DNA of 34,139 bases from Treponema sp. (GTDB taxonomy: Bacteria; Spirochaetota; Spirochaetia; Treponematales; Breznakiellaceae): positions 1 through 34,139 of the forward strand of contig WQUW01000014.1 of NCBI GenBank assembly GCA_009781915.1, given 5' to 3'. The notes beneath the pieces are model-generated. The model searched no databases. It was not told the DNA's origin and saw only the letters and a list, made by a program, of their open reading frames with translations. Shown piece after piece: positions 1,288 through 17,072 of the stretch. Numbering within the stretch: the stretch's first letter is position 1; each line of letters opens with the position of its first letter. Made by a program: the position numbers and the translations under genes.

Positions 1288-1953
1288 TTACGCAAGTTGG
1301 ATATGGTTGTTCAGGAAAAATTCCAATGCCGATCGTGAAAGATTGCGAAAGTGTAAATCGTATAAAAACTGCCTGAATAAAGAATCATTCTCGTGTATGT
1401 TTATAGTGCAACCGACTGAAGCCAGTACCATCATCACCAATATGTAGGTAACAAACTCATTATGATACTCAAAAAAAACATAGGTATTCTCATTTTCCGG
1501 TACTGTGGCTTTTACATCGGCCCGGAAAGGCTTTAACATGGCAAACCAATAAAAAAGATTGGCGATCCTTCTATGTATGTATGGGCTATGCGAGTCGATT
1601 TTAATGCCATAGTCCTCATAGCTGATAAGTTCTTTAGTGTCCTCATCCTGAATTTTGTATTTTTCCCTAAAGTGTAAAACCCGTGCGTGTAACCTTTTTT
1701 CTCCAAAAACATCGCGGGAATACCGGCACATAGCCCGGTTTAACGCAAGAGAATCATAGGTACATTCGATGGCGGATATTATATTTTTCTCAAAATACCG
1801 TTCAAAGACCGCATCAATACTCTCCAAAATAGCATCGGCTATCTCATCCCTGTTGACCAAAACAAACTTATCGTCCCTGAAAATATACTGCATCGATTCA
1901 TCTTGCTGATACATATAATCTTTAAGGAGGCAACGAGCCAAATTTGCAGGCAT
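1288..1953 (-). CDS. Hypothetical protein, element left arm
   Basis: A 221-residue protein that I do not recognise. It is rich in charged and aromatic residues, with a helical, acidic middle (NRDEIADAILESIDAVFERYF). One hydrophobic stretch near the C-terminus (FVTYILVMMVLASVGCTI) could be a single membrane segment or a buried helix. Its ATG shares one base with the TGA of the upstream 66-residue gene (TGATG), so the two are translationally coupled and probably work together. Both would be expressed from the promoter at 2200-2229. No ribosome-binding site is needed with this arrangement, although GGAGG is present nearby. Confidence 0.6.
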   Translation of the reverse strand: MPANLARCLLKDYMYQQDESMQYIFRDDKFVLVNRDEIADAILESIDAVFERYFEKNIISAIECTYDSLALNRAMCRYSRDVFGEKRLHARVLHFREKYKIQDEDTKELISYEDYGIKIDSHSPYIHRRIANLFYWFAMLKPFRADVKATVPENENTYVFFEYHNEFVTYILVMMVLASVGCTINIHENDSLFRQFLYDLHFRNLSRSALEFFLNNHIQLA

Positions 1954-2153
1954 CAGAGATTGCCCTTTTTCACTGTTCCTATCCTTTTCAAGCCAGCAAC
2001 AACGCTTTCGATTATTTCTTGATTGCTCTTTTCTATTGGACTCAGCCCAAACGAGTTGCTCATATCCGGGTTTTCGATAGGCTTATCCAGCGATGTCCTT
2101 GGATAGAGCCTTTCGTCCATTAAGCTGGTTTCCCTTTTATAGTAATTTCCCAT
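1953..2153 (-). CDS. Small hypothetical protein coupled to the 221-residue gene
   Basis: A 66-residue protein starting MGNYYKRETSLMDE. I chose this ATG over a longer upstream start because a clear GGAGG lies about 6 nt before it (2161-2165), whereas the upstream extension would be translated from inside the promoter/operator repeat. The sequence is polar, with a C-terminal helix (SNQEIIESVVAGLKRIG). No family recognised. It is the first gene after the leftward promoter at 2200-2229 and is coupled to the next gene through a TGATG overlap. Confidence 0.55.
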   Translation of the reverse strand: MGNYYKRETSLMDERLYPRTSLDKPIENPDMSNSFGLSPIEKSNQEIIESVVAGLKRIGTVKKGNL

Positions 2154-2170
2154 AATTACCCTCCAAATAC

Positions 2171-2234
2171 CATATATGCACCTATATATGCGTATATATA
2201 GCATACACTCGGCAGACTAAGCGGGTCAAGTCCA
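2171..2234 (-). promoter_or_regulatory. Promoter-operator repeat, copy A (leftward)
   Basis: On the minus strand a -35 box TTGACC (2224-2229) is followed after 18 bp by TATGCT (2200-2205). Directly downstream, where RNA polymerase would start, lies an AT-rich inverted sequence (ATATATGC ... GCGTATAT, 2172-2197). The whole 64 bp is repeated almost exactly at 2802-2863, and its architecture recurs at 16302-16358. It should drive the 66- and 221-residue genes and perhaps the lipoprotein and recombinase. The inverted repeat is a probable binding site for an element-encoded repressor; which protein binds it is not known. Confidence 0.65.
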
Positions 2235-2283: not shown

Positions 2284-2781
2284 TTATTGCGTATCTTTGC
2301 CATAAAGGGGCGTGTAAACTGCGCCGAGAGCCTTTAGCGCGGCACTCGTTTTCTTTGCGGCTGGAATAATGGCTTCAATAACGGTGTCCATTTCTTTTTG
2401 GGCGCTAATTACACCCCTATCCGTTTTGACGGATTTTCGTAAAAATTTAAGCCGAGCTTCACGGTATTTTTTGAAAGCCTTATCCGATAATGAGTTAGCA
2501 GACTTTTCAGTGCTTTTTGCGTTGCCGTAGTTTTCCAAAAGCCTAAAAACCCCGGCATTTTCAGCGGCTTTATTGATAGCATCCAGCATTGATTTATCTC
2601 CTTCCGTAATACCGGGATCAGCACCGAATAAAATCGTTGTCCGGTGCTTACAAGGAAGGTGGTTTTCCGCCGCAGTACAGGTACAAGATATTGAAAATGG
2701 AGAAAATGAAACCTTAACCACATAGGGCTCAGGGGCCGAACCCTGCACAAGATACGTTAGAGGTTTGTCTTTTTTGACCAT
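2284..2781 (-). CDS. SWIM-type zinc-binding protein
   Basis: A 165-residue protein with a SWIM-like zinc-binding motif near the N-terminus: Cys33-x-Cys35, then eight residues, Cys44-x-His46 (CTC ... CKH). SWIM modules occur in bacterial SWI/SNF ATPases and in transposase-related or DNA/protein-binding proteins. Here the module stands alone, followed by a helical, Lys/Ala-rich region (KAFKKYREARLKFL, AAKKTSAALKALGA). It is transcribed from its own copy of the promoter-operator repeat at 2802-2863. Start ATG at 2781 with an AGGTGG-like site upstream. A DNA- or nucleoprotein-binding role is an inference from the motif only. Confidence 0.7.
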   Translation of the reverse strand: MVKKDKPLTYLVQGSAPEPYVVKVSFSPFSISCTCTAAENHLPCKHRTTILFGADPGITEGDKSMLDAINKAAENAGVFRLLENYGNAKSTEKSANSLSDKAFKKYREARLKFLRKSVKTDRGVISAQKEMDTVIEAIIPAAKKTSAALKALGAVYTPLYGKDTQ

Positions 2782-2801: not shown

Positions 2802-2863
2802 CATATACGCCTATATATGCGTATATATAGCATACACCCGGCAGACTAAGCGGGTCAAGTCCA
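2802..2863 (-). promoter_or_regulatory. Promoter-operator repeat, copy B (leftward)
   Basis: Second copy of the repeat. On the minus strand TTGACC (2853-2858), an 18-bp spacer and TATGCT (2829-2834) form a promoter for the SWIM-protein gene. The downstream inverted repeat is perfect here: ATATACGC (2803-2810), eight bases, then GCGTATAT (2819-2826). It overlaps the expected transcription start, a common position for a repressor site. Confidence 0.68.
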
Positions 2864-2912: not shown

Positions 2913-3302
2913 TCAGGCCGATTCTTCCCCCTTTTCAAGGCTTTCAGCCCCTACCCGAAAAGCCATCTCGTCTGCCAGCAGTTTTTTCGCATAATCGATG
3001 AGCATTTTCATGGCCTTTGGGGATAATTTTCTGGAAAGATGAAAAAGCCGCTTTTCATCCTCGGAATATTGGGCATCTTCGTTTATCATTTCGCCTATTC
3101 CGAAGCGGAACCAGTCCTCATTAACCCCAAAAGTAAGGCATATAAGGTTTACATTTTGATTGTTGATAGCAGTGCGCCCAGATTCCATGTAGGAAATTGC
3201 AACATCGGACATACCTATTTTTTTTCCGAATTCACTCTGAGTTAAATTAAGGTGCTTTCGTAAGTCTTTTAGTCTCTCTTTCATATTCATATTATCCGAC
3301 AT
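2913..3302 (-). CDS. XRE-family transcriptional repressor
   Basis: A 129-residue protein with an N-terminal helix-turn-helix of the Cro/CI (XRE) type: LKDLRKHLNLTQSEFGKKIG, then MSDVAISYMESGRTAIN, about residues 11-50. The rest (EDWFRFGIGEM, a charged helix, LIDYAKKLLADE) looks like the short C-terminal extension of many prophage repressors. There is no peptidase domain, so induction by self-cleavage is not expected. It is divergent from the right-arm operon, and the intergenic region carries two palindromes over a strong promoter, so it probably controls the switch of the element. The start is uncertain: ATG at 3302, or a Met a few residues inside; neither has a clear ribosome-binding site. 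Confidence 0.88.
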   Translation of the reverse strand: MSDNMNMKERLKDLRKHLNLTQSEFGKKIGMSDVAISYMESGRTAINNQNVNLICLTFGVNEDWFRFGIGEMINEDAQYSEDEKRLFHLSRKLSPKAMKMLIDYAKKLLADEMAFRVGAESLEKGEESA

Positions 3303-4448: not shown

Positions 4449-4803
4449 AAACCGATGAGTCCCTTGCCCTGCACGGAATGCAAATTGCCATCGACCGCCT
4501 AACAGTAGAAATAACAAAGCAGCGCCGCGAGGCCGAAGAACAAAGGCGTTTTAAGGGCTTGCCTGAATGGGTAACCCTAGAGCAAGCCGCTCTGGTCAAA
4601 GGCGGCCCGGCCTTAAACACGTATAAGGCGCAATCTTTTTTGCGCCCATGCTGTGGACGGAATTTCCGCAGTGTGGGCGGCGGCACTGCTGGCACCGGGA
4701 CGATGTGATTTTATGGGTAAGCATAACGGACAAAGAAATAAAAGAATACGCTGACAAATTCAACGTAAAAATTCCAGAAACGTATATAAGAAGGAGCGAG
4801 TAA
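4445..4803 (+). pseudogene. Excisionase/HTH-like gene split by a -1 frameshift
   Basis: The frame from ATG 4445 (MKTDESLALHGMQIAIDRL ...) runs through WVTLEQAALVKGGPALNTYK and CCGRNFRSVGG, then reads low-complexity GGTAGTGTM and stops at 4708. In the -1 frame, from about 4665, the sequence continues sensibly as RRHCWHRDDVILWVSITDKE and on to TYIRRSE, stopping at 4803 just before parA. The composite (Trp-Val-Thr-Leu-Glu start, CCG ... GGR..CWH..DVILW) looks like a winged-helix/excisionase-type DNA-binding module. The shift lies near the GGGCGGCGGCAC tract at 4672-4683. It may be a true mutation, a sequencing error or programmed frameshifting. The ATGA overlap with the gene before it suggests the start is used. 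Confidence 0.6.
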
Positions 4804-4805
4804 AA

Positions 4806-5516
4806 ATGGTAATTACTACATCATCATGGAAGGGCGGTACAGGCAAAACAACGCTTAACATTATACTGACGATAATACTGGCCCTGCGTAGAATGAAAAT
4901 TCTGCTTATTGATCTTGATTCAAACTGTGCGCTTTCGCAGTGCTTTGGTTATTTAATGAAAGATGTTACTTCAATGGAATTTTTGTCCGCCTCGGACAGC
5001 TTTCAGGGGCCGTATAAATACTCGGATAACATAGACATTATTCCGGGCAATATTAAAAACGTCTTATTAAACAATATATCTGATTTTCAGCTAAAAATAA
5101 ATATCAAAAAACATGGACTGCGGGACAAGTACGATTACATAATAATCGACCCTCCGGGCTATCTTGGGGCGCATACCCGCAACGCGGTGTTTGCCGCTGA
5201 CGTGCTGGTAATCCCCGGTACGTGTTCCCGGATCGACTACGAGGCGACATCGCTGTATTTTTCCGAACTGGAACAATACGGACTGGATGCCGATGTATTT
5301 GTTTGCCTGAATGCCTTTAGCAGTAAAACAAACCTGCCGGGCATCCGGGAAATGTATCAGGAAAAATTTGGGGAATTTATGATACCAGAACCAGTGCCGT
5401 ACATCGCTTCACTGAAAAAGCTTACAAACGATGTCCGCTACCAGCTTGCCGCTCCAGTGCGGGCACGGCTTGACGCTTATGTAGATCATATTATAGGAGG
5501 GGGCAAAAATGCCTAA
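4806..5516 (+). CDS. parA: ParA-family partition ATPase
   Basis: A 236-residue P-loop ATPase of the ParA/MinD type. The deviant Walker A motif KGGTGKTT with its signature Lys is at residues 9-16, followed by ILLIDLDSN (Walker A') and YIIIDPPG (Walker B). These proteins bind DNA in the ATP form and move ParB-bound plasmid or chromosome sites. It lacks the N-terminal helix-turn-helix of larger plasmid ParAs, so autoregulation probably lies elsewhere. AAGGAGCGAG precedes the ATG. It overlaps parB by 8 nt. A partition pair in an integrated element implies that the element can exist as a low-copy circle, or that it keeps a plasmid past. Confidence 0.9.
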   Translation: MVITTSSWKGGTGKTTLNIILTIILALRRMKILLIDLDSNCALSQCFGYLMKDVTSMEFLSASDSFQGPYKYSDNIDIIPGNIKNVLLNNISDFQLKINIKKHGLRDKYDYIIIDPPGYLGAHTRNAVFAADVLVIPGTCSRIDYEATSLYFSELEQYGLDADVFVCLNAFSSKTNLPGIREMYQEKFGEFMIPEPVPYIASLKKLTNDVRYQLAAPVRARLDAYVDHIIGGGKNA

Positions 5517-6468
5517 AATGGAAACCGCCGGAAAAATCCGGCAAATTAGCCTAACGCAAATTGTGGAAAACGATAATGTCAGAAAGGAATACAATGGCAT
5601 CGAAGAACTTGCCGCGAGTATAAAGATCAACGGCTTAATAGAACCCATTGCGGTAAAGGCTATTGGAAAAGACAATGACGGCATAGACAAGTACGAGCTT
5701 GTTGCCGGGTTCCGCCGCCGCAGGGCATTCCAGCATCTGTGCGACATGGGCGAAAACTATTCCATGATTGACATAACAATTGTAACAGGCGACAAGCTCA
5801 CCCTGCAATTGGTAGAAAATTTACAACGCGCCGACTTAACCCACGTAGAAATGGAATCAGGAATACACCAATTGGCGCAGTCTTTGGGGTCAAACAAGGA
5901 AGCCGCCGCGCGTTTGGGAAAAAGCGATTATTTTATCGCGCGTAACATTACCGCCCATCGCACCAGAGAAGCGTTAAAAGACCTTGGGGTTAATACAGCG
6001 TCTTTGTCCACAACGGCACTGAACGAAATACAAAGCTTATCAGGCGAAAACCTTAAAGCGGCCGGAATAAAGCTGGTTACAGAGGGCGGCACTGCCGCTG
6101 TCGCACGGCAATTAGCGCGTGAGCATAATGAGCCGCATATCAGTCAGGAAGAACCCGGACAAACAGAAGCCGGAAACGTACAGGCGGCTGAAAGCGACAG
6201 CGACAATAGTTTTGCCAGCGCAATGCCCGATGATGATGTTACAGACGCTCCTGTGCTTCTGCCCGCTTCCCCGGAAAAGAAGCCCGAAAAGAAAAAACAG
6301 GCGCAAAAGCTAGAACCCCCTCCGCATAAAAATGTAAGCCTGAATTCGGTGCAGGTAGTTATCCAGCGTTACATAGACGGAATCAATAGTTCCAGCGCCA
6401 AAAGCGAATATGCCGATGCCGCCTATGAAATATGGGCGCTTTTGCTATCGGAGCTTGGCGGGAAGTAA
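5509..6468 (+). CDS. parB: ParB-family partition protein
   Basis: A 319-residue ParB/Spo0J-like protein. The N-terminal ParB domain has IVENDNVRKEYNGIEELAAS, INGLIEPIAVKA and ELVAGFRRRRAFQHL, corresponding to the CTP-binding ParB boxes. A middle region (NLQRADLTHVEM, ARLGKSDYFIARNI) forms the helix-turn-helix that reads parS. A long acidic, Pro/Lys-rich linker (about residues 205-275) leads to a C-terminal helical dimerisation segment. A strong AGGAGGGGG precedes the start. It works with parA; no obvious parS was located by eye. Confidence 0.9.
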   Translation: MPKMETAGKIRQISLTQIVENDNVRKEYNGIEELAASIKINGLIEPIAVKAIGKDNDGIDKYELVAGFRRRRAFQHLCDMGENYSMIDITIVTGDKLTLQLVENLQRADLTHVEMESGIHQLAQSLGSNKEAAARLGKSDYFIARNITAHRTREALKDLGVNTASLSTTALNEIQSLSGENLKAAGIKLVTEGGTAAVARQLAREHNEPHISQEEPGQTEAGNVQAAESDSDNSFASAMPDDDVTDAPVLLPASPEKKPEKKKQAQKLEPPPHKNVSLNSVQVVIQRYIDGINSSSAKSEYADAAYEIWALLLSELGGK

Positions 6469-6743
6469 TGGAGAAAAAACGGAACCCGAATTTTATTTAC
6501 GTTCATAGCGACACCCTTAAAATGGAACTTGCCGTAAGTAAAAAATCAGGTGATGTTTTTTCCGCTGATGGTGTTAAATACACAACGGCGGAGGTTGCGG
6601 CCCTTGCTTCCAGCGGGGCGCACATAACGCTAGCGGAGCATAAGGTCAAGAAATTATTCGGAGGGGAGATTGTAAGCCGTGAGAGACCGGAAGCAGAAAA
6701 GCACGAAACATTACAAACACAAAGCGAACTGGATATTTTCTAA
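6468..6743 (+). CDS. Small hypothetical protein coupled to parB
   Basis: A 91-residue protein (MEKKRNPNFIYVHSDTLKME ...). Its ATG overlaps the parB stop (TAATG), so it is translated by coupling. Beta-rich start, then a helical stretch (YTTAEVAALASSGAHITLAEH) and a charged C-terminal tail. Its position between parB and the primase suggests a role in element maintenance or replication, but no family is recognised. Confidence 0.6.
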   Translation: MEKKRNPNFIYVHSDTLKMELAVSKKSGDVFSADGVKYTTAEVAALASSGAHITLAEHKVKKLFGGEIVSRERPEAEKHETLQTQSELDIF

Positions 6744-6769
6744 CGTGCTTGTAATAAAAAAGGCTGGCA

Positions 6770-9700
6770 ATGCAGATCGATAGATACCGCCGCCGCTTAT
6801 CCGAATACCTGCGCAGTAAAGGTGTTGACACATCAAAAAACCCTACATCATGCCCGAACACCGCCGCTCATAAAAACGGTGATTCAAATCCGTCATTCAG
6901 TATTAAGGAAAAAAGCAATGGCGATTCTTGCAGATGCTTTACGTGCAACATTGGCGGCGGCATTTATGACATGATAGGCTGGTTCGAAGGAATCAGCGAT
7001 TTTGCCGGACAGTATAAATTCGCTCAAGATTTTTTTGGCGATCCTGTCTACACGCCGCCTGCATCTAAAACCAAAAAAAGGAGTGATTTTAAGTACAATC
7101 TGGAACAGATGAAAATACTGGAGGCGTACCTTCGCAAGAATCCAGCGTCTGAAAAAATGATCAGAAAATTTCTTGCGGATCGCGCTAACTACAGTACCGG
7201 GGGTGGAACCCATTCGGGCGATGCTGGCGCAGTATCCGATTATCCTGAAAATACCATACCGTTTTTTGTTGAGAATTTATTTTATTGGCCCGGCCTTGAT
7301 ATAGTCCTGAAAGATATAAGCCGTGACGCGCTGTTTAATTGCGGCATTCCGCTGGTCGGACAAAACGGAAGCCAGTCAACATGGATGCGATCCGGCGTTG
7401 TTATGAAGCTTGGGCAGGGCTATAAATTACATTTCTACGAAAAAAAATATTGTGATGGTTGCGGCAATAGCAAAAAATACCGTGAAGCCGTTACCCGCGC
7501 AGAAGCCGAACCTGAAAAACTGCTTGAATGTAAAAAATATGGAACAAAAGGCTTCTGCCACAAATGCGAAAAACGAAATTCAAAGGCCGGCCATGCGTTC
7601 CCGATGCCGGGCCAGATTGACAAAACGCTTCCGGTTGTTTTGGTTGAGGGCGAAATGGACGCCCTTGCCTGTGCCGCCGCTGGAATAAAAAACGTATTTT
7701 CTACAGGCGGCACAAGCGGCCTTACCTCTCCGTATGTTCAGGCACACCTTCTTGAAGCGCCTGAAATAATCCTGATGTTTGACGCTGACGAAAAAGGCCG
7801 CAAAGCGTCCGGAATTGACATTCTTAACGCAAGCGATGACATAAAGAGCGTTCCAAAGACAATTCTGCGAGGCGGATATACGGGGAAAATAAGGCTTGCG
7901 GAACTGCCATTGGATAACAGTGAAAAAGACCCCGATGCCTTGGTTATAGCCGGAAAAATTGGGGTAATGCAAAAAGCGATACAGGAAGCGAAGGAATATG
8001 TACCTGTAGCAAAACCCCAAAAGCAAAAAGCCCCAGCGTTTGAATTTTTCGCCGATTTAAGCTCAAAAAGATTAAGATGTCTTTTACGGAAACTTGAAAG
8101 GTCAAAACTGGATCATGATGATGTCCAGCCATTTGTAACGGCTTGCAAAAACGCCTTTAATTATGATGACACAGGCTTACTGCTTAGAGAGTGGGGAGCG
8201 ACAGTAAAAGAGCTGACAAATAAAAACGATACTACACCAGCGTTTCTTTTACAGGTAGCGCATAAGTATTTAAGCCGCTATATGCAGCGGCAGATTGAAA
8301 AAGAACTTACCCCTGTAGAAGAACTTCTGCGAAGAATAAAAATCCAAGACGTAAAAATAGAGCTTGATTTTGAAGAATTGGAAATAAATGAAAATGCCCG
8401 GAATTTTGTGTTATACGGCGGTGTGCGCTCCGCCGCTTTAATGCTTGCTGATATATTCGACGGCAGAATTATTTATAACGCCGCTAAAAACGACAAGAGA
8501 TTTTATTTTTTTAACGGTCATATTTGGCAGCATGAGCCGGATGTAACGGGAGTCATATACAACACGCTTCTTGCCGTAATTAAACATTTTCTGCGCGCAA
8601 ACAAGGACAGCGAAGCAGACGATGAAGTCAAGAAAAAAGAAAAAATCAGGCTCATGGATGTTCTGCGAAATATTGAAAAGCGCACATACCGCGTAGAAAT
8701 TCAAAACGAATTCGCAAGCCTGAAAAATGAAGGTGTTTACCATGATTCAGATAAACCTGATGACGCGCTGCACTTTGATGGCGAAGCCACAAAAGAAACG
8801 CTGACGCTATCCGATGGCGTACTTGACTTTTCCGGCAAAGAACTGGTGTTCAGGGCCGCGAAGCCGGAAGAATACAGGAGCCGTATTCTTGATTATAAAA
8901 TAGATGATGTAAAAAAAGGCGGCCCGTGCGAAAAAATATGGAAGTTTATGCGCGGGAATTTCAAGAACGAAGACACACTGCAAACACTGATGTACGAACT
9001 CTGCATTATTATGTCTAGGGCATTTCACAAATACGGCGGCTTTTGGATTGGAGGCAAGAATACCGGAAAGTCTACGACAATGCAAATAATGAAAGCGATA
9101 TTCAAGCATTATATTTGCGCACTTGATCCAAATGTTATTGTACCAAAAGGAAAAACCTTTGTGTCTGGAAACGGCCCAACGCCATATTTGGCAAGGCTGC
9201 CGGGACATGGAGCGGCGTTTGTAAGTGAGCCGGAAGATGGCGCTTACCTTAACGCAGGTCTCTGGAAACAACTTACCGGCGGCGACCTTGTTACCGCACG
9301 GGGCCTTAATGAAGCGCCCAAAGATTTCCGGAATACGGCGCATATTATTATTAACACAAATCACCTGCCAAAATTCGACCGCCACGATGAAGCTGTTATT
9401 GTCCGCGCTGTTGTAATACCTTTTCTGGTTTCGCACAACGCCAATGAAGAAGGAACTATGCGCCCCGAAGAATTTGTTGAATACTTAAAGCCGGAATTTC
9501 CAGCTTTTATTAAATTGCTGGCTGAATATTATGTACATTTTAAGCACAAGCTTAACGGCGTTATACCAATATCAGAAGAGTCTGAAGCTCACAAAATGGG
9601 ATATATCGCGGAAGTTGAAACTGACCTTGACAGGTTTGTCAATGACTGTTTTTCTTTTGAGCCACAGTCAATCGAAGTTATAAAAAAAGCTTACGAACAA

Positions 9701-9988
9701 TATAACGCTTACCATGAATTTGATGATACATCGAGTAAGCGTAATGACGCGCTTAGCCAGCACAAATTTACACGCATGATCATGAAGAACTACAAAGACA
9801 AAATAACAGAACAAGTTAGGCGTGTAGTGATAGATGGTGTTTCGAAACCGGCACGATGTTTCGTTGGCTTGAAGCTTCGGACACTTGAAGAAGTTGCGGA
9901 TCGCTCCATTGCGAATAGCAAGGCCAGCGGTGATATTTTTAACGCGGTAAATAATCAACCGGAGCCAGACGAGGGCAAACCGTTTTGA
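6770..9988 (+). CDS. Toprim primase fused to D5/P4-type SF3 helicase
   Basis: A 1072-residue replication protein. The N-terminus carries a CHC2-like zinc finger (Cys28, His34, Cys56, Cys59). A second Cys cluster (CDGC, about residue 227, and CHKC, about 264) lies before a Toprim domain with VEGEMDAL (about 288-295) and FDADEKG (about 336-342), the metal-binding residues of bacterial-type primases. The C-terminal half is a D5-like SF3 helicase: Walker A GGKNTGKST (about 760), an acidic AAFVSEPEDG segment and the asparagine sensor region HIIINTNHLP. This layout is typical of plasmid and phage primase-helicases that start replication. The start at 6770 has only a weak AAAGGC upstream. It is the core replication gene of the element. 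Confidence 0.92.
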   Translation: MQIDRYRRRLSEYLRSKGVDTSKNPTSCPNTAAHKNGDSNPSFSIKEKSNGDSCRCFTCNIGGGIYDMIGWFEGISDFAGQYKFAQDFFGDPVYTPPASKTKKRSDFKYNLEQMKILEAYLRKNPASEKMIRKFLADRANYSTGGGTHSGDAGAVSDYPENTIPFFVENLFYWPGLDIVLKDISRDALFNCGIPLVGQNGSQSTWMRSGVVMKLGQGYKLHFYEKKYCDGCGNSKKYREAVTRAEAEPEKLLECKKYGTKGFCHKCEKRNSKAGHAFPMPGQIDKTLPVVLVEGEMDALACAAAGIKNVFSTGGTSGLTSPYVQAHLLEAPEIILMFDADEKGRKASGIDILNASDDIKSVPKTILRGGYTGKIRLAELPLDNSEKDPDALVIAGKIGVMQKAIQEAKEYVPVAKPQKQKAPAFEFFADLSSKRLRCLLRKLERSKLDHDDVQPFVTACKNAFNYDDTGLLLREWGATVKELTNKNDTTPAFLLQVAHKYLSRYMQRQIEKELTPVEELLRRIKIQDVKIELDFEELEINENARNFVLYGGVRSAALMLADIFDGRIIYNAAKNDKRFYFFNGHIWQHEPDVTGVIYNTLLAVIKHFLRANKDSEADDEVKKKEKIRLMDVLRNIEKRTYRVEIQNEFASLKNEGVYHDSDKPDDALHFDGEATKETLTLSDGVLDFSGKELVFRAAKPEEYRSRILDYKIDDVKKGGPCEKIWKFMRGNFKNEDTLQTLMYELCIIMSRAFHKYGGFWIGGKNTGKSTTMQIMKAIFKHYICALDPNVIVPKGKTFVSGNGPTPYLARLPGHGAAFVSEPEDGAYLNAGLWKQLTGGDLVTARGLNEAPKDFRNTAHIIINTNHLPKFDRHDEAVIVRAVVIPFLVSHNANEEGTMRPEEFVEYLKPEFPAFIKLLAEYYVHFKHKLNGVIPISEESEAHKMGYIAEVETDLDRFVNDCFSFEPQSIEVIKKAYEQYNAYHEFDDTSSKRNDALSQHKFTRMIMKNYKDKITEQVRRVVIDGVSKPARCFVGLKLRTLEEVADRSIANSKASGDIFNAVNNQPEPDEGKPF

Positions 9989-10019
9989 TTAAATATTTTT
10001 TGGATCAAGGAGAATAGCA

Positions 10020-10361
10020 ATGAAAGGAATGCACAGAATGAAAACGAACAAAGACTATCAAATTGCACTTAACAGGGCACTGTCATGGTTCGATGTTGAA
10101 ACACAAAAAGCGGTGAAGCTTGCACACAGAGACAATCTTGTAATAATTTTTGAAAATGACTCTGAAATAAGCGGCAAGACAACACTGGCAAGACTGCTAC
10201 GAAGCTTGGGCATTGCGGCATATTCGCCAGAACAATTTAAGGTGATTAAACTTAAAAGGCAGGAACCTCTTGATGGGATGTATGTTTGCAGCGTATGTAC
10301 GCGGGCTGATAATTGTCCTGATTACAACAAATCAATGTCAGTCTGCGCTAAATTTGAGTAA
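10020..10361 (+). CDS. Hypothetical protein with Cys-rich C-terminus
   Basis: A 113-residue protein preceded by AAGGAG 7 nt before the ATG; an internal Met (MKTNKD) is a second possible start. It has a segment ISGKTTLARLLRSLG that resembles part of a P-loop, but the leading glycine of Walker A is missing, so ATP binding is doubtful. The C-terminus has four cysteines (CSVCTRADNC ... C), a possible zinc site. Function unknown; it lies directly after the primase-helicase. Confidence 0.6.
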   Translation: MKGMHRMKTNKDYQIALNRALSWFDVETQKAVKLAHRDNLVIIFENDSEISGKTTLARLLRSLGIAAYSPEQFKVIKLKRQEPLDGMYVCSVCTRADNCPDYNKSMSVCAKFE

Positions 10362-10372
10362 GGGGGCCAGCA

Positions 10373-10486
10373 ATGAGCAGAATAATTAAGGAATGGGACT
10401 ATCTCGAAAGCATATCAAGCTATAATGAAGTGGCTACGGCAATGAGAAAAACAATCGATGCCGTTAAAGGGGGAAACAATGGGTGA
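10373..10486 (+). CDS. Very small hypothetical protein (37 residues)
   Basis: An ATG preceded by AGGGGG at 8 nt opens a 37-residue frame (MSRIIKEWDYLESISSYNEV ...) that fills the gap between two coding genes and overlaps the next start. The good ribosome-binding site and snug fit support real translation. The predicted product is a short amphipathic helix. Function unknown. Confidence 0.45.
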   Translation: MSRIIKEWDYLESISSYNEVATAMRKTIDAVKGGNNG

Positions 10487-10694
10487 AATTGTAGATCGCC
10501 AGTGCCTTATTTGCGGCGGTGAGATAATTCTAAAAGCTTGCGCACATTGCGGCAGCGATGCGGAAATAGTTATATCCAGTTTAGATACAAATGGAATTAA
10601 GCTTTTTATAAAGTGCAGGTCTTGCCCCGCAGGTATCATCTCTACATTTTGTAAAGACGCTATCCTTGCATGGAATAGGAGGGACGGCAAATGA
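10479..10694 (+). CDS. Lar-family zinc-ribbon (restriction alleviation-like)
   Basis: A 71-residue protein with two Cys pairs (CLICGG ... ACAHCGS, and KCRSC) and the ending DAILAWNRRDGK. The C-terminal A-x-x-AWNRR motif is a hallmark of Lar/restriction-alleviation-type zinc ribbons carried by phages and prophages; in the Rac prophage, Lar relieves type I restriction. Start ATG at 10479 follows AAAGGGGGAAAC. An anti-restriction role here is an inference from the family, but it fits an element that also encodes two DNA methyltransferases. Confidence 0.75.
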   Translation: MGEIVDRQCLICGGEIILKACAHCGSDAEIVISSLDTNGIKLFIKCRSCPAGIISTFCKDAILAWNRRDGK

Positions 10695-10912
10695 GTAGAG
10701 AAAAAGACGGCAGACCATTTGGACTACTTAGCAAAGGCGATGCTTTTCTCGTGCTGTTATTGGCTGGTTGTTACAGCCGTGCTAATGGCGACAGGAAAGC
10801 CCTTGAAAAAATAGCGCGAGAAGTAGCCGCTATCATGCGTAAGGGCAAGCGTCCAAATATCGCTAGTAAACTTTATGATTATATTCTCAAAGAATTGAAG
10901 GAGGCCCAGTAA
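10691..10912 (+). CDS. Small hypothetical protein
   Basis: A 73-residue, mainly helical basic protein (LSKGDAFLVLLLAGCYSRAN, ALEKIAREVAAIM). It starts in an ATGA overlap with the Lar-like gene and ends in a TAATG overlap with the next one, so it is translated as part of a coupled series. One short hydrophobic helix is visible. No family recognised. Confidence 0.55.
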   Translation: MSREKDGRPFGLLSKGDAFLVLLLAGCYSRANGDRKALEKIAREVAAIMRKGKRPNIASKLYDYILKELKEAQ

Positions 10913-11250
10913 TGAAAGGCGAAATTGACAGGGATTTTTATTGTTCAGGTACTTTTTTTGGCGGTTCTGAATGGTGTAACAGCAAAAACAGAATATGCGT
11001 AGGCATTAGCGGCGATAATATCTTTTGTTCTTGTTATCATCGCAAACGGCCAACGCCGGAGCAGTATCGGACGGAGTACGGCGAGGATTACCCGGAAAGA
11101 GGGGCCGTCTACTTTATGCGTAAGGAGCCACCAGCGAACGATACATGGTATGTTGAGCGGTTGGGGCCGCCAGAGCATTTGAGTCATTGTCTTGTTGTCT
11201 GCGCTTGTACCCCTTTTGGCCCGCCGCCCGATGATTGGAGGCCGGAATGA
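10912..11250 (+). CDS. Hypothetical protein
   Basis: A 112-residue protein with several cysteines (YCSGTFFGGSEWCNSKNRIC, FCSCYH) and a Pro-rich end (PFGPPPDDW). The odd cysteine spacing could bind zinc. It is coupled on both sides (TAATG in, ATGA out) and has GGAGG before its start. Function unknown. Confidence 0.5.
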   Translation: MKGEIDRDFYCSGTFFGGSEWCNSKNRICVGISGDNIFCSCYHRKRPTPEQYRTEYGEDYPERGAVYFMRKEPPANDTWYVERLGPPEHLSHCLVVCACTPFGPPPDDWRPE

Positions 11251-11429
11251 TACTTATAGCTTACGACATACAAGAAACAGCAGGCAATAAATTTTTATAC
11301 CACGAATTCAGGTCTTGCTATGGCTGGATAAGTAATTGCCTTGATGATCATTACAAGGAATTTGCCAGCAAGGAAGAAGCTGAAAAATACGGCAAAGATC
11401 GTGGGGCGTTTTACGCCTATGGGTATTAA
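11247..11429 (+). CDS. Small hypothetical protein
   Basis: A 60-residue acidic protein (MILIAYDIQETAGNKFLYHE ...) with many aromatic residues and a helical EEAEKYGKDRG segment. I use the ATG at 11247, which overlaps the preceding TGA and follows GGAGG; a longer in-frame start exists but has no ribosome-binding site. Function unknown. Confidence 0.5.
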   Translation: MILIAYDIQETAGNKFLYHEFRSCYGWISNCLDDHYKEFASKEEAEKYGKDRGAFYAYGY

Positions 11430-11441
11430 CAGGGGGCCTGG

Positions 11442-11660
11442 ATGATATCAGTAACAACAGAACGTGAAGGGTTTACTATTGGTTTTAGTGTAGGCAATCG
11501 TATAAAAATTCGATGTGGTCACGATCGGTCATTTATCATTAGAAAGCTTCCATCTGGAGGCTTTACAATTGAAGCGGCTAGAAACACCGATGAAAAGCAA
11601 TTTGATTTTTTAGTAGAAAACGGGGTCAGCGTTTCGGCACTCAAGGAGGGGTCAGAATGA
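11442..11660 (+). CDS. Small hypothetical protein
   Basis: A 72-residue protein that appears beta-rich (GFTIGFSVGNRIKIRCGHD, FIIRKLPSGGFTIEA) with an acidic C-terminus. An AGGGGGCC sequence lies upstream of the ATG. Its stop overlaps a further tiny frame at 11657. No family recognised. Confidence 0.5.
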   Translation: MISVTTEREGFTIGFSVGNRIKIRCGHDRSFIIRKLPSGGFTIEAARNTDEKQFDFLVENGVSVSALKEGSE

Positions 11661-11689
11661 AAAAGGAAGCTGAAAGGAGCAGGAGTTAA
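11657..11689 (+). CDS. Ten-residue coupling ORF before the tyrosine recombinase
   Basis: ATG at 11657 overlaps the previous stop (ATGA) and follows GGAGGGG; the frame encodes only MKKEAERSRS, and its TAA overlaps the integrase ATG (TAATG). It also contains the AGGAGC-type site that would serve the integrase. It may simply pass ribosomes on to the recombinase and set its level. I claim no function for the peptide. Confidence 0.3.
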   Translation: MKKEAERSRS

Positions 11690-12672
11690 TGAACGAGCAG
11701 ACAATTAGGGAAACGCTTTGTCTTTTGGCTGATACCTTCAGCGGGCAAGAGCTTCTCAAAATAGAGGCCGCCATGAGAACAGTTTCAATGAATCCCGGAG
11801 CCGGAATTAACGGTGAAGGCGAAACGGCCCTGATCGCTGACCCTGGACATGACGCTAAAGCATACAGAATGTTTTTTGTGTCAAAAAAGATAGAAGGACT
11901 TAGCGCGGCCTCATTGAAATACTACGCTGTTATACTGCGGCAGTTTTCGGTGTTTATACGAAAGCCGTTGCCAGCAATTGCCGCTGATGATATACGGTTT
12001 TACTTGGCTTCAAAATCCGTGTCCCCAACAACTCTGAATAACGAGCGGCGAGTATTATCATCTTTTTTCGGATGGCTTTGCAACGAGGAGTACATACCGA
12101 AAAACCCGATGCTGAAAATAAAAAGCATAAAGGAGCAGAAAAAAATAAAAGAGCCGCTGTCGGCAAGCGATATTGAGGAACTGCGGGATACTTGCAAAAC
12201 ATTACGGGACAAGGCCATTGTTGAAATTCTGTTAAGTACCGGGATGAGGGTCAGCGAGCTATGCAAATCCAACAAGGCTGACGTTGACTTGTCAAAAGGG
12301 GAAATACTCGTAACAGGTAAGGGCAACAAGCAACGGATATGCTATATCAACGCGGCGGCAAAAAAAAGACTTACCGATTATTTGAAAAGCAGAAACGATA
12401 ATCACGAGGCCCTTTTTCTTTCGTGGAACAACAATAGGCGCTTACAGAATGGAGGCGTTGAGCTGCTTATCCGTGGTATGGGAAACAGCGCCGGTATAAA
12501 GAAAACCCATCCGCACAGGCTAAGGCGCACCGCCGCTACCATAGCGCTAAAAAGAGGGATGCCAATCGAGCAAGTGCAAATAATGCTGGGACACGAAAAG
12601 ATAGACACGACCATGCGATACGCAATCACCGCCGATGAAGCGGTCAGGCACGCGCACTCTAAATATATGTAA
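11689..12672 (+). CDS. Tyrosine recombinase (XerC/D-like integrase)
   Basis: A 327-residue phage-integrase-family recombinase. The N-terminal SAM-like core-binding domain covers about residues 55-140 (GLSAASLKYYAVILRQFSVF). The catalytic domain has all expected residues: Arg in STGMRVSEL (about 186), Lys in TGKGNKQR, HPHRLRR, LGHEKI and nucleophile Tyr about 311 in TMRYAIT. Translation is coupled to the upstream tiny frame. It is the best candidate for inserting the element into the tRNA-His gene, since tyrosine integrases often use tRNA anticodon regions. Its place in mid-operon, about 3.7 kb from the visible attachment site, is unusual for an integrase, so this remains an inference. Confidence 0.93.
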   Translation: MNEQTIRETLCLLADTFSGQELLKIEAAMRTVSMNPGAGINGEGETALIADPGHDAKAYRMFFVSKKIEGLSAASLKYYAVILRQFSVFIRKPLPAIAADDIRFYLASKSVSPTTLNNERRVLSSFFGWLCNEEYIPKNPMLKIKSIKEQKKIKEPLSASDIEELRDTCKTLRDKAIVEILLSTGMRVSELCKSNKADVDLSKGEILVTGKGNKQRICYINAAAKKRLTDYLKSRNDNHEALFLSWNNNRRLQNGGVELLIRGMGNSAGIKKTHPHRLRRTAATIALKRGMPIEQVQIMLGHEKIDTTMRYAITADEAVRHAHSKYM

Positions 12673-12683
12673 GGGGGAAGAGA

Positions 12684-13046
12684 GTGAAAACAACGCTTAA
12701 TGAATATTTGGGACGGTTGGGGCTGGGGTCTCCAATGAGCGACTACATGATAGACAAGGAACGGCTACCTCACGGCAATACATTAAGGCAACAAAAAAAA
12801 ATGGAAAAGGAGGCAAACGCGGCAAGCCTCGATTACTGGGAAAGAAGGGCCACCGCTATAGATGAATACCGCGCGAAGGTAACGTCGGGGGAAATTACTG
12901 AAAAAAGCGCATTGGAAGTGCGGATAGAAAGAGCAAATGGACACCCTGACAATCCGAGCGTTCAGGCGGCGCGGCGAAGGCTTGAGAAAAAAGGTGTGAA
13001 TTGGAAAGCCATGAGCGGGAAGGACTACCGTGCGAAGAATAATTGA
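12684..13046 (+). CDS. Hypothetical charged protein
   Basis: A 120-residue protein starting at a GTG with AAGGGGGAAG upstream. It is strongly charged and mostly helical (RQQKKMEKEANAASLDYWER, SALEVRIERANGHPDN, ARRRLEKKGVNWKAM), perhaps a coiled coil. It overlaps the next methyltransferase gene by 17 nt. It may be a DNA-binding accessory, but no family is recognised. Confidence 0.55.
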   Translation: MKTTLNEYLGRLGLGSPMSDYMIDKERLPHGNTLRQQKKMEKEANAASLDYWERRATAIDEYRAKVTSGEITEKSALEVRIERANGHPDNPSVQAARRRLEKKGVNWKAMSGKDYRAKNN

Positions 13047-13980
13047 CGCAGATGCGCTTGAGGCATTGCGGACACTGCCGGAAGGCATCGCTGATATGTG
13101 CGTAACTTCCCCGCCTTACTATGGTTTGCGGGATTACGGTGTCGAGGGACAGATCGGGATGGAAGAAACACCGGACGCATACATTCATCGGCTGGTTGAA
13201 GTATTCCGAGAGGTGCGGCGGGTTTTGTGGGACGATGGCACACTTTGGGTAAATATCGCCGATGCTTATGCCGGCAGTGGCAAGGGATCGGCGCATTATC
13301 CAGAATCCTCGAACAAATATAAACAAGGCACAAATAAAGGGATTTTAGACCAACCGAATTTACCTAGAGGATATGTCCCTGCGGGTTGCAAACCCAAAGA
13401 CCTTATCGGCATACCGTGGATGCTCGCTTTTGCTCTCCGCGCCGATGGGTGGTATCTCCGGCAGGATATAATCTGGCACAAGCCAAACCCGATGCCTGAA
13501 AGCGTAACTGACCGTTGCACCAAAGCGCATGAATACATTTTTTTGTTGAGTAAATCGGCAAACTATTACTACGACAACGAAGCTATAAAAGAGCCAGCGG
13601 CAACCCATAATAATTTAATCCGCGACAGGGACTCCAGCCGCTTAAATAATACCCCCGGAAGAAAAAGAATGGGAGGGCTGGTTAAAAATGATTATGCTGC
13701 ACGCAATAAACGCAATGTGTGGACGATAGCTACAGGTTCGTGCAAAGAGGCGCATTTTGCGGTGTTCCCCGAAAGCTTGATACTTCCCTGCATATTGGCT
13801 GGGTCTAGGGTGGGCGGGATAGTACTTGATCCATTTATAGGAACCGGAACAACGGCGGTTGTGGCCATTAAAACTTTTAGAAATTATATCGGATGTGAAA
13901 TAAATCCGGGATATATAAAGCTCGCTGAAAAACGAATCGCAATAGAGAAAGGACTTTGGGATGACGCGGCATTATCTTGA
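13030..13980 (+). CDS. TSPPY-type DNA methyltransferase (N4-C or N6-A, beta class)
   Basis: A 316-residue methyltransferase that transfers a methyl group from S-adenosylmethionine to an exocyclic amine of DNA. The catalytic motif IV is TSPPYYG (residues 26-32) near the N-terminus, and the AdoMet-binding motif DPFIGTGTTAVVA lies near residues 267-279; this order is that of the beta class. TSPPY is common in N4-cytosine enzymes but also occurs in N6-adenine enzymes, so the base is not decided. A central region with SVTDRCTKAHEYIFLLSKS and a Trp pair is usual for the family. Start GTG. No restriction nuclease is adjacent, so it is an orphan, probably protecting the element from host restriction. 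Confidence 0.9.
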   Translation: MRRIIDADALEALRTLPEGIADMCVTSPPYYGLRDYGVEGQIGMEETPDAYIHRLVEVFREVRRVLWDDGTLWVNIADAYAGSGKGSAHYPESSNKYKQGTNKGILDQPNLPRGYVPAGCKPKDLIGIPWMLAFALRADGWYLRQDIIWHKPNPMPESVTDRCTKAHEYIFLLSKSANYYYDNEAIKEPAATHNNLIRDRDSSRLNNTPGRKRMGGLVKNDYAARNKRNVWTIATGSCKEAHFAVFPESLILPCILAGSRVGGIVLDPFIGTGTTAVVAIKTFRNYIGCEINPGYIKLAEKRIAIEKGLWDDAALS

Positions 13981-14794
13981 CCTGTTTTCAGGAATTGGCG
14001 GTTTCGCCCTTGCCGCGTACTGGGCCGGGCTGCGATTTGACAGACACTATTTTTCGGAGGTTGAACCGTATGCCGTTGAACTGTATCAAAAGAGGTTCCC
14101 ACAAGCTATCGCGCTTGGTGATATTAAGAATATATCGGGAAAAGATTTACCAAAAGGTGATTGGGTTTTTTCTGGCGGTTTCCCTTGCCAAGATTTATCA
14201 TCTGCCAGAAACCCTATCGAAAAAATAGCTGGGCTAGAAGGAGAAAAATCAGGACTGTTTTATGAATATAAAAGGCTCATTAGCGAAGTACGACCAAGAT
14301 TCGCGGTCATGGAGAACGTATCAAGGTTACTTTCATGGTTTGATGATGGAGAGGCAAGACAGGCGAATAGTAATGAAAGCGCTGGACGGCAATACTTCCA
14401 ATACCAAGGTATTGGAAAATGCGCAGGTAGTCTTTCCGAGATCGGGTATGACACGGAATGGCAAATTATATCCGCTTCCGCCATTGGAGCGAGCCATAAA
14501 AGAGAAAGAGTGTGGATTATTGCCTACCCCTCTGGCGAGCGATTCAATGAGACTAAATTTCAAAAAAAAAACTTTGATAAAGAACTACAAGAAATGCGTA
14601 GAAAGGGGATTAATGAAAACCTTAGTGGAATTATTCTTGGCGAAAACCAACGAATACCCGTCGAGTATTTTCTACGAGGAAATGATGGGCTATCCGAAGC
14701 AATGGACAGAATTAAGGGCCTCGGTAACGCCATTGTCCCTCAATGCGCGGAATTGATATTTCGCCTTCCGGCGTTTGATGAATGGAGGCAGTGA
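13961..14794 (+). CDS. DNA cytosine-5 methyltransferase
   Basis: A 277-residue C5 methyltransferase. Motif I is DLFSGIGGF (7-15), motif IV GGFPCQDLS with catalytic Cys76, motif VI MENV (about 117), motif VIII GASHKRERVWIIA and motif X GLGNAIVPQ (about 254). The target-recognition segment between VIII and X is only about 60 residues, so the enzyme is small. It overlaps the preceding methyltransferase by 20 nt. About 495 bp of its second half also carry an open +1 frame (14262-14756) that looks like a protein in its own right. Motifs VI, VIII and X all fall inside that shared stretch, so both frames seem constrained. With no nuclease nearby, anti-restriction or epigenetic control is likely. Confidence 0.92.
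   Translation: MTRHYLDLFSGIGGFALAAYWAGLRFDRHYFSEVEPYAVELYQKRFPQAIALGDIKNISGKDLPKGDWVFSGGFPCQDLSSARNPIEKIAGLEGEKSGLFYEYKRLISEVRPRFAVMENVSRLLSWFDDGEARQANSNESAGRQYFQYQGIGKCAGSLSEIGYDTEWQIISASAIGASHKRERVWIIAYPSGERFNETKFQKKNFDKELQEMRRKGINENLSGIILGENQRIPVEYFLRGNDGLSEAMDRIKGLGNAIVPQCAELIFRLPAFDEWRQ
14262..14756 (+). CDS. Overprinted +1-frame ORF inside the C5 methyltransferase gene
   Basis: A 164-residue frame lying entirely inside the methyltransferase gene, shifted +1. Its translation is not random: it contains SLAKYDQDSRSWRTYQGY, FPRSGMTRNGKLYPLPPLER, CGLLPTPLASDSM, MMGYPKQWTELRASVTPLS in order. From memory, these match signature blocks of phage proteins often found near C5 methyltransferases (SWRTSQ, WPRSGM..NG..Y.LPPL, LWPTP, MGFPxGWTxL). 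An AGGA lies 7 nt before the ATG at 14262. Each block sits opposite a conserved methyltransferase motif: SWRTYQ over the motif VI region, LPPLER and LLPTP over motif VIII, TPLS over motif X. It may be translated independently, or the known protein family may have arisen by overprinting. No function is known to me. Confidence 0.55.
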   Translation: MNIKGSLAKYDQDSRSWRTYQGYFHGLMMERQDRRIVMKALDGNTSNTKVLENAQVVFPRSGMTRNGKLYPLPPLERAIKEKECGLLPTPLASDSMRLNFKKKTLIKNYKKCVERGLMKTLVELFLAKTNEYPSSIFYEEMMGYPKQWTELRASVTPLSLNARN

Positions 14795-14795
14795 G

Positions 14796-15026
14796 ATGCA
14801 GGAAACAATAATCGGCGAATTAAATAGCGACTATGATCCAGATACATTCTTACGAATAGTGATAACTGAAGGCGGAGACATAAGCGTACGTATTTATGGA
14901 AAAGGTGAATTTGTAATATCAGGGCCGGGAGGCGGTAGTCTATTAGAGGGATCAACAAGATTAGAAGTAGTTCGAGCTTTTACGGCTATCGCCAAAGCTA
15001 CAAAAAGAGAAAGAGATAGGACATGA
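14796..15026 (+). CDS. Small hypothetical protein
   Basis: A 76-residue protein beginning MQETIIGELNSDYDPDTFLR. GGAGG lies about 10 nt upstream, which favours this start over an earlier Met. Beta-rich middle (LRIVITEGGDISVRIYGKGE) followed by a Gly-rich loop and a C-terminal basic helix. Its stop overlaps the radical SAM start (ATGA). No family recognised. Confidence 0.55.
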   Translation: MQETIIGELNSDYDPDTFLRIVITEGGDISVRIYGKGEFVISGPGGGSLLEGSTRLEVVRAFTAIAKATKRERDRT

Positions 15027-15841
15027 AAATAATCCGTGTTTTCCCTCGCAGAACCAACGCCACGCCAACTGACGAATTGGCATTTGTCGGAGAACCTACA
15101 ATGTTCGTACCGGAAGTAGATGAAGCGCGTATATCCGTTGCGTTCTCGTGGGATTTACCGGAAGCGGAACGGCTTGAAAAGCAGTGGCGGCATATCGCTC
15201 CTGTTAGAATAGGAGGCCCCGCCACAGGACAGCGTGGAGAAGATTTTACTCCAGGAATGTATTTGAAAAAAGGCTATGTGATAACAAGCCGGGGGTGTTA
15301 TAACCGTTGTTGGTTTTGTTCCGTATGGAGCAGAGAGGGCGATGTCCGGGAACTTCCCATAACCGAAGGGTGGAACATTCTTGACGACAATCTGCTTGCT
15401 TGCTCTGACAACCACATTAAAAATGTTTTTGAAATGCTGGCGAAGCAGAAACACAGGCCCTGTTTTACAGGCGGGCTAGAAGCCGCCCGCCTTAAAAATT
15501 GGCACGTACAGGAATTGCGAAAACTAAAACCAAAAGAATTATTTTTTGCCTATGATACCCCCGGCGACAGAGACCCGTTATTTGAAGCAGGAAAAACATT
15601 GCTGAAAGGTGGGTTTTCCCGCAAGAGCCAAAACCTTCGGGCTTATGTGCTTGTTGGCTATCCGGGGGATACGTTTACGGCAGCGGAGAAACGTCTTGTG
15701 GAAACCATGAAAGCGGGGTTTATGCCAATGGCAATGCTCTACAGGGACGAAACTGGCAAGCGTGATTCCGCATGGGTGAAGTTCGCATGGCCTTGGGTTC
15801 GCCCAGCGGCAATGTCGGCAAAATATAGGACTTTCGCTTGA
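15023..15841 (+). CDS. Radical SAM domain protein
   Basis: A 272-residue protein with a radical SAM cluster motif GCYNRCWFCSV (Cys-x3-Cys-x2-Cys, about residues 92-99) for a [4Fe-4S] cluster that cleaves S-adenosylmethionine. The preceding stretch (YVITSRGC) and later beta strands (KELFFAYDTPGD, LRAYVLVGYPGDT) fit a partial TIM barrel of the family. The N-terminal 85 residues (FVGEPTMFVPEVDEARISVA) have no cluster and may bind substrate. It begins by ATGA overlap and ends by TTGA overlap with the next gene. Such enzymes occur in phages near DNA-modification genes, so nucleic-acid or nucleotide modification is one possibility, but the substrate cannot be told from the sequence. Confidence 0.85.
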   Translation: MKIIRVFPRRTNATPTDELAFVGEPTMFVPEVDEARISVAFSWDLPEAERLEKQWRHIAPVRIGGPATGQRGEDFTPGMYLKKGYVITSRGCYNRCWFCSVWSREGDVRELPITEGWNILDDNLLACSDNHIKNVFEMLAKQKHRPCFTGGLEAARLKNWHVQELRKLKPKELFFAYDTPGDRDPLFEAGKTLLKGGFSRKSQNLRAYVLVGYPGDTFTAAEKRLVETMKAGFMPMAMLYRDETGKRDSAWVKFAWPWVRPAAMSAKYRTFA

Positions 15842-16215
15842 CTGACGATCCCGATCCCGATGGTATCCGCAACATCTCCCTTATTCCTCTAGCGCCGCCA
15901 AACGCATTATGTGATATGTGGGGAAACATTAAAACAGAACCATTATGCACAGTCGAAGAACGGCACGGTGATATGTTCGCAAGAATATTCGTTTACCGGG
16001 CCGGTGACCGTTTTTACTACGGGTATCAGATAAGCATAGGAACCATAGTGAGGCAAAAAACGGCCAATTTGCAGGATCGCTCCTTTAGCTCTGTGGATTT
16101 TGCCCGTTCCGCAGCAAGTATCGACATTGAGCGGGTCTGTAATACAAATAAGAACGCGAAAAAAATATTCGCTGATTTTATCAAAATCCGCTACAAACAG
16201 GGAAGTTTATTTTAA
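15838..16215 (+). CDS. Hypothetical protein coupled to the radical SAM gene
   Basis: A 125-residue protein that starts at a TTG overlapping the radical SAM stop (TTGA). It has a beta-rich middle (MFARIFVYRAGDRFYYGYQI) and a C-terminal basic helix (NAKKIFADFIKIRYKQ). It is the last gene of the right arm, 158 nt before the attachment-site tRNA remnant. The tight coupling suggests that it acts with the radical SAM enzyme or is simply co-expressed; no family recognised. Confidence 0.6.
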   Translation: MTDDPDPDGIRNISLIPLAPPNALCDMWGNIKTEPLCTVEERHGDMFARIFVYRAGDRFYYGYQISIGTIVRQKTANLQDRSFSSVDFARSAASIDIERVCNTNKNAKKIFADFIKIRYKQGSLF

Positions 16216-16255: not shown

Positions 16256-16278
16256 AAAGGTCAAGTAAAAGGTCAAGT
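16256..16278 (+). repeat. Tandem AAAGGTCAAGT repeats near the element end
   Basis: AAAGGTCAAGT occurs at 16256-16266 and again at 16268-16278, one 12-bp step apart. They lie about 100 bp from the tRNA crossover, a usual place for integrase arm-type sites. The GGTCAAGT core also occurs inside both left-arm promoter repeats. An integrase-binding role is only a suggestion. Confidence 0.35.
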
Positions 16279-16301
16279 GCTGTATATATCCCTATATGCC
16301 A

Positions 16302-16358
16302 TTGACTAACTCTTTCCCATATTGTACTATCTGCATATACGCTTATATATGCGTATAT
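16302..16358 (+). promoter_or_regulatory. Outward promoter-operator, copy C, at the element right end
   Basis: TTGACT (16302-16307), a 17-bp spacer and TACTAT (16325-16330), followed by the perfect inverted repeat ATATACGC (16335-16342), eight bases, GCGTATAT (16351-16358). The inverted repeat is the same as that of copy B at 2803-2826. The promoter points across the attachment site: into carD when integrated, and into whatever lies at the other element end when circular. The gap 16216-16505 otherwise holds the tandem repeats, the tRNA remnant and the carD promoter, and no gene. Confidence 0.7.
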
Positions 16359-16372
16359 GGAGCATGGGCCTA

Positions 16373-16415
16373 ATTGTGGATCTTGTTGTCGCGGGTTCGA
16401 GACCCGTCATCCACC
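16373..16415 (+). pseudogene. 3' half of tRNA-His (attachment-site remnant)
   Basis: From the last base of the 5' anticodon stem: loop TTGTGGA with anticodon GTG (His), 3' stem TCTTG, variable loop TTGTC, a full T-arm (GCGGG-TTCGAGA-CCCGT, 16391-16407), the acceptor strand CATCCAC (16408-16414) and discriminator C (16415), the C73 expected of tRNA-His. CCA is not encoded. Upstream, the sequence expected to pair with TCTTG is absent (CCTAA instead of something like CAAGA), and no D-arm exists. So this is a displaced 3' half, as left when an element integrates at a tRNA anticodon region. The restored gene should lie at the other end, left of the window. Confidence 0.82.
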
Positions 16416-16491
16416 CTCGCGGTTTCGCGCGGCGCGCGGGCTGGCGTAAAAACCCGCCCGCCGCCCCATTCCCATTCGTTTATTTTTGGTG

Positions 16492-16497
16492 TATAGT
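16492..16497 (+). promoter_or_regulatory. -10 box of carD, very close to the start codon
   Basis: TATAGT ends 8 nt before the carD ATG (16506), so the transcript would have at most a couple of untranslated bases. A poor -35 (TTCCCA, 16469-16474) lies 17 bp upstream. No ribosome-binding site fits in between except the partial AGGCGG. Confidence 0.5.
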
Positions 16498-16505
16498 AGG
16501 CGGTA

Positions 16506-17072
16506 ATGAATAAGGCTCCCAAGAAATTTCAGGTGGATCAGCGGTTGGTGTATCCCAGTCAAGGGGTCGGGATAGTCAAATCCGTTGAGGAAAAAGTATT
16601 CAAAAACACCACGGTTCTTTATTACGTGATTTACCTTGACGTATCGGACATGACGATCATGGTTCCGGTGGACAAGGCGATGGAGCTGGGGATACGGCCC
16701 ATCGTGGGCAAGGACGAGGCCCTGCGAGCGCTGGAGCTTATCGGCGAGAAGTACGAATCCATCCCGTCGGACTGGAAGCTGCGATATCAGATGAACATGG
16801 ATCTTTTGAAAAAGGGGAGCATCACGGACATCGCCATGATTGTCCGCTCCCTCTACCACCGGAGCAAAGTAAAAGAACTCCCCATTCTGGAGCGAAAGCT
16901 CTACGATTCGGCCCTGAAGCTTCTGGAGGACGAGGTTTCCTGCTCCCTGCGAAAGTCCAAGGAAGAAGTGGAGACCCTGATCTTCACCCGTCTGGAAACC
17001 GAAACCGAGACCAAAGCCGGGGCGGATACCGATGCCGACACCGAAGCGGACATCGAAGCCGACACCGAGTAA
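16506..17072 (+). CDS. carD: CarD/CdnL-family RNA polymerase-binding regulator
   Basis: A 188-residue protein whose N-terminus (FQVDQRLVYPSQGVGIVKSV) is the CarD/TRCF RNA-polymerase-interacting domain, followed by the helical DNA-contacting domain (SDWKLRYQMNMDLLKKGSIT, VRSLYHRSKVKELPILERKL). These proteins stabilise open complexes, notably at rRNA promoters. After the core comes a repetitive acidic tail (ETETETKAGADTDADTEAD) that is not part of the family fold. It is the first chromosomal gene after the mobile element and heads carD-ispD-ispF-nth; the element's outward promoter reads into it. Confidence 0.9.
   Translation: MNKAPKKFQVDQRLVYPSQGVGIVKSVEEKVFKNTTVLYYVIYLDVSDMTIMVPVDKAMELGIRPIVGKDEALRALELIGEKYESIPSDWKLRYQMNMDLLKKGSITDIAMIVRSLYHRSKVKELPILERKLYDSALKLLEDEVSCSLRKSKEEVETLIFTRLETETETKAGADTDADTEADIEADTE

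Follow-up and report, generated by a model that had tools for sequence, protein, structure and literature searches.

The described system nearest in working principle to the locus reported here is ICEclc of Pseudomonas. Its intB13 transcript was attributed to Pcirc, position 102,729 (PMC2892462), which was termed an outward facing constitutive promoter (PMC9286271). In the KplE1 prophage the intS promoter is located on the int side, overlaps attL and stays joined to int (PMC2951348). Moreover, outward promoters of mobile elements can drive host genes. In HK022 an outward prophage promoter replaces the disrupted native torS promoters (PMC6814406), and in SpyCIM5 a cryptic promoter inside a decayed int is the source of the mutL message (PMC3430984).

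The window, i.e. the whole stretch of 34,139 nt that was analysed, is the entire contig C14 of a 2.82-Mb Treponema genome (G000) present in 180 contigs. It contains a prophage end whose predicted promoter resembles Pcirc in being located at the end opposite int and facing outward across att. In contrast to ICEclc, the element is a phage and not an ICE. Furthermore a palindrome, common to other promoters of this phage, overlaps the expected transcription start, which suggests a promoter under control, unlike the constitutive Pcirc. With KplE1 intS the locus would share an int promoter coupled to the attachment region and controlled by proteins acting there, as shown for KplE1 and suggested here. 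However, the promoter is found on the other arm and would be detached from int by integration.

Architecture of the prophage ends

Genome comparison revealed a single further site identical to the 48-bp att core of the window, namely G000:C34:5716-5763, where ARAGORN finds an intact tRNA-His. On C34 the core is followed by a tyrosine integrase gene (int, matching the phrog_1 integrase with 3e-27) and by the genes for the small and large terminase subunits. Left of the core, the window encodes ParA and ParB, a primase and DNA methyltransferases as well as a CI-like regulator. Based on the common core and the phage gene content of both contigs, we assign C34 as attL and the window as attR of one prophage. 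Its middle is absent from the assembly and the joined circle is predicted from the two contigs. The features of the right end are as follows.

16256..16278, + strand: two direct repeats AAAGGTCAAGT with a period of 12 bp, probable arm-type sites for Int on the right (P) arm
16283..16298, no strand: AT-rich element TATATATCCCTATATG immediately 5' of the -35, resembling the right half of the palindrome
16302..16330, + strand: outward promoter TTGACT-17-TACTAT, proposed int promoter in the circle, with equivalents in six other right ends
16334..16359, no strand: perfect palindrome CATATACGCTTATATATGCGTATATG over the expected transcription start, probable operator
16373..16420, + strand: attR core of 48 bp, equal to the 3' part of the intact tRNA-His at attL from the anticodon loop on, plus CTCGC

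That identity begins in the anticodon loop fits a strand exchange at this position. The ends show the features of lambda-type attachment: a tyrosine integrase next to att, a core within a tRNA gene and arm-type repeats on both sides. The arm-type label is predicted from repeats and position. At the opposite end (G000:C34, about 5638-5662) repeats similar to AAAGGTCAAGT immediately precede int, and G000, G182 and G059 have arm-type repeats at either end.

The sequence-only reading had described a promoter TTGACT-17-TACTAT followed by a perfect palindrome ATATACGC-N8-GCGTATAT (16335-16358), pointing out of the element across the att site. Both elements were recovered. The hexamers TTGACT (16302-16307) and TACTAT (16325-16330) are separated by 17 nt and directed rightward, out of the element and beside the att core, and the palindrome even reaches arms of 9 bp, CATATACGC TTATATAT GCGTATATG (16334-16359).

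Besides int on C34, further recombinase genes are found in the window, one for a serine recombinase (12-644) and one for a second tyrosine recombinase (11689-12672). The early-gene block of ParA, ParB, primase and methyltransferase has opposite orientations relative to att in the window (4089-16215) and in G182:C2 (33631-46618).

Related right and left ends

Named relatives of the integrase derive from Treponema and other Spirochaetia assemblies, several of which we take to be of termite-gut origin from their isolate names. The right ends of six relatives (G182, G059, G167, G078, G070 and G153) were located via arm repeats, tRNA fragments and SWIM orthologues. TTGAC(A/T) is found in 7/7 right ends of the Int family, window included. 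A -10-like hexamer starting with TA follows 17-18 nt past the -35 at each of them; in G078 the best-scoring spacing is 16, with TAAATC at 17. In all six ends with a known core, again including the window, a promoter matching at least 9/12 positions ends 41-46 nt before the core, compared to at most 4/6 across 2000 shuffled sets. G182 and G153 exhibit a perfect TTGACA-18-TATAAT. An AT-rich stretch similar to the one just upstream of the -35 in the window is present in G182 and G059.

For single sequences the promoter p-values are 0.31 (window), 0.40 (G059), 0.46 (G078), 0.07 (G167), 0.007 (G070) and 0.001 (G182 and G153 each), the combined value for the right ends being 1e-5; all of them are to be read as guides, because the statistic was picked after the sequences were seen. 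On its own, the 9/12 match of the window is at chance level within the arm-to-core interval, but it is kept in the related prophages, and it is this conservation that makes the predicted window promoter credible.

No promoter of at least 9/12 is located between core and int in 8/8 left ends (best match 7-8/12), i.e. an int promoter at the KplE1 position is found in none of these eight. In nearly all left ends of the Int family the interval from core to arm sites contains an imperfect TAATTCCTTATAATATAAGGAATTA-type palindrome, which directly follows the core in e.g. L081, L099 and L104. In L097 (G041) and L098 (G002), relatives of Int reside in the anticodon loop of tRNA-Pro, the 5' half of the tRNA being left at the junction. 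After int the opposite strand carries an entire tRNA-Pro gene (anticodon TGG), which may take over from the interrupted one.

In L256 (G059:C41, about 3939-4000) a related prophage has integrated into the promoter region of an exported-protein gene. The core of 20 bp, GTATGATAYTAAAAAGGGAG, contains a -10-like sequence, and hence the phage end could contribute the upstream portion of this gene's promoter.

Searches against IMG/VR returned no match for the combined operator and promoter pattern, 0 matches for Int alone and 3 for the Int alignment. With the arm-site pattern, this Int was carried by a single one of the matches listed, L173, which is the known G182 phage.

The palindrome and its candidate ligand

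Allowing up to 3 mismatches, the palindrome is found at 3 sites of the window where 0.14 are expected, and 2 of them are exact. Compared to shuffles of the segment just after the -10, its occurrence at the right end has a p of 0.01. The additional copies and the adjacent regulator genes are listed below.

2174..2197, no strand: third, partial copy (2 mismatches), after the nearly identical leftward promoter of ORF 1953..2204
2284..2781, - strand: SWIM zinc-finger protein of 165 aa, candidate regulator
2802..2827, no strand: second exact copy of the palindrome core (8-bp arms), just after the leftward promoter of the SWIM gene, TTGACC-18-TATGCT
2913..3302, - strand: CI-like HTH_3 regulator, whose own control region exhibits the different palindromes TTGATTATAATCAA and CAATATTTATTAATATTG

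The spacing from promoter to palindrome at the copies 2803 and 2174 is nearly equal to that at 16302. Throughout the whole genome the exact pattern occurs only at 16335 and 2803, both within the prophage, while copies with 2 mismatches are found at 2174, on C35 and on C67; with the reversed control, each strand returned one match. Since the exact pattern recurs only in its own prophage, at the leftward promoter of the SWIM gene, the palindrome is probably a phage-specific operator. An operator for a host regulator was rejected, as exact copies are confined to the prophage and copies with 2 mismatches occur elsewhere at about the control rate.

Among the right ends, G000, G059 and G182 have long and perfect palindromes (24-26 bp) of differing sequence after the -10; in G167 and G078 the palindromes are short, and in G070 and G153 absent or weak. 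Because the latter two have no clear palindrome, and because the palindromes at att and at the SWIM promoter of G182 differ from one another, operator control may not extend to the whole Int family.

The SWIM protein is a candidate ligand of the operator. Its candidacy is based on the operator copy at its own promoter, on orthologues that adjoin the right-end arm sites in three relatives (G182, G078 and G167) and on the SWIM gene of G182, whose promoter TTGACA-17-TAAAAT is likewise followed by a palindrome, though of another sequence. One may go further and propose that the SWIM protein is the repressor and belongs to a hitherto unrecognised class of phage regulators, acting on its own promoter and on the int promoter in attP. 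This would result in a two-lock switch, widespread in spirochaete phages, with repressor binding as one lock and the physical separation via integration as the other. We regard this extended proposal as speculative and doubtful. The CI-like protein was considered as well and is not favoured as the binder, given the other palindromes in its own control region and the fact that the operators do not track CI similarity.

Function of the right-end promoter

Joining of the two ends would result in a leader of 162 nt from about 16337 to int, which is the next gene. As the gap between core and int offers at most 7-8/12 at the left ends, the leading candidate for expressing int in the circle is the right-end promoter. 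The sequence-only reading had suggested a sensor of the integration state that drives the genes of the left end in the circular form. Such a dependence is supported by our data, and the left-end gene in question is the integrase. We consider it likely that the right-end promoter represents a repressible, Pcirc-like int promoter which is parted from int by integration.

In the circular form RNA polymerase starting near 16337 would cross the core and read int, thereby providing Int for integration. Integration at tRNA-His would then place the whole prophage between promoter and int. Hence Int made from the attP promoter would be self-limiting, as integration disconnects the promoter from its gene. 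A putative phage-specific repressor would bind the palindrome just downstream of the -10 as well as the two leftward promoters of the CI/SWIM region. In the lysogen it would silence the right-end promoter and restrict transcripts running out into host DNA. The predicted effect on int concerns the attP promoter, which is not the sole possible source of int message: in the lysogen the tRNA-His gene precedes int and is oriented the same way, so that the tRNA-His promoter could also read int.

Palindrome and TTGAC could instead mainly be recombination sites of attP, the former bound by an excisionase (Cox- or Apl-like, perhaps also acting as repressor) and the latter part of an inverted arm-type Int site. 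In lambda-type attP, excisionase and arm-type Int sites occur between arm repeats and core. This is where both elements are located here, at fixed positions relative to arms and core, and TTGAC falls within an inverted arm site ACTTGACC. We nevertheless regard this explanation as rather unlikely, since recombination sites account neither for the TA-initial hexamer at promoter spacing in each end (G078 with its best spacing of 16) nor for the perfect promoters of G182 and G153. Moreover the base 5' of TTGAC is A in 5/7 ends whereas arm sites have C, and the palindrome is also found at two promoters 14 kb off.

The host gene next to attR has to be considered as another target.

16469..16497, + strand: carD's own promoter TTCCCA-17-TATAGT, located beyond attR and ending 8 nt short of the ATG at 16506
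16506..17072, + strand: carD, host gene downstream of attR

According to the sequence-only reading, the integrated element would drive carD and gain control over host transcription. Indeed the promoter aims at carD, the start of which follows after about 170 nt, no terminator of the canonical intrinsic type was predicted on the + strand in between, and torS in HK022 sets a precedent for a prophage promoter reading from the attachment junction into host DNA (PMC6814406). However, in HK022 the host promoters are disrupted, whereas carD retains its own promoter, and a comparable one (at least 8/12) is present at carD in 24/28 loci of relatives with a usable start, window included. SpyCIM5 likewise exhibits an island-borne promoter that reads into a host gene, but here the promoter is located inside attP and is conserved among related prophages. 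The same right-end design faces different host genes elsewhere, namely tRNA-Arg in G182 and an exported-protein gene in G059. Furthermore the relatives examined have no tRNA closer to carD than about 1.5 kb, and the carD neighbourhood is therefore not a conserved target. A predicted G+C-rich hairpin, at most a possible terminator, intervenes between attR and carD (about 16431-16465); the energy of -29.5 kcal/mol for this stretch is ordinary compared to shuffles, and the hairpin lacks an adjoining T-run. We find no support for carD control as the function of the promoter, and selection for altering host transcription in this way seems very unlikely to us. Read-through into carD may occur, without any sign of selection for it, and carD is probably a mere neighbour. 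A literature search on CarD of spirochaetes yielded nothing of use. In most relatives a TATAnT-like -10 ends 6-11 nt before the ATG of carD, which is apparently (almost) leaderless.

Finally, chance likeness to a promoter in A+T-rich DNA, together with a palindrome that merely forms a transcript hairpin or an unrelated repeat, would be in line with the p of the window promoter alone and with the predicted RNA fold of the palindrome (-15.4 kcal/mol), but is highly improbable in view of the promoter position kept across six ends, the three operator copies with near-identical promoter geometry and a site that matches no Rfam family.

If the right-end promoter is indeed an int promoter that integration splits from its gene, spirochaete phages would restrain their integrase through geometry, and the shared operator would couple the int promoter to the lysogeny region. 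With the SWIM protein a testable candidate for the regulator is named. The fixed order of two arm sites, promoter, palindrome and core provides a signature by which such right ends may be recognised in fragmented genomes.
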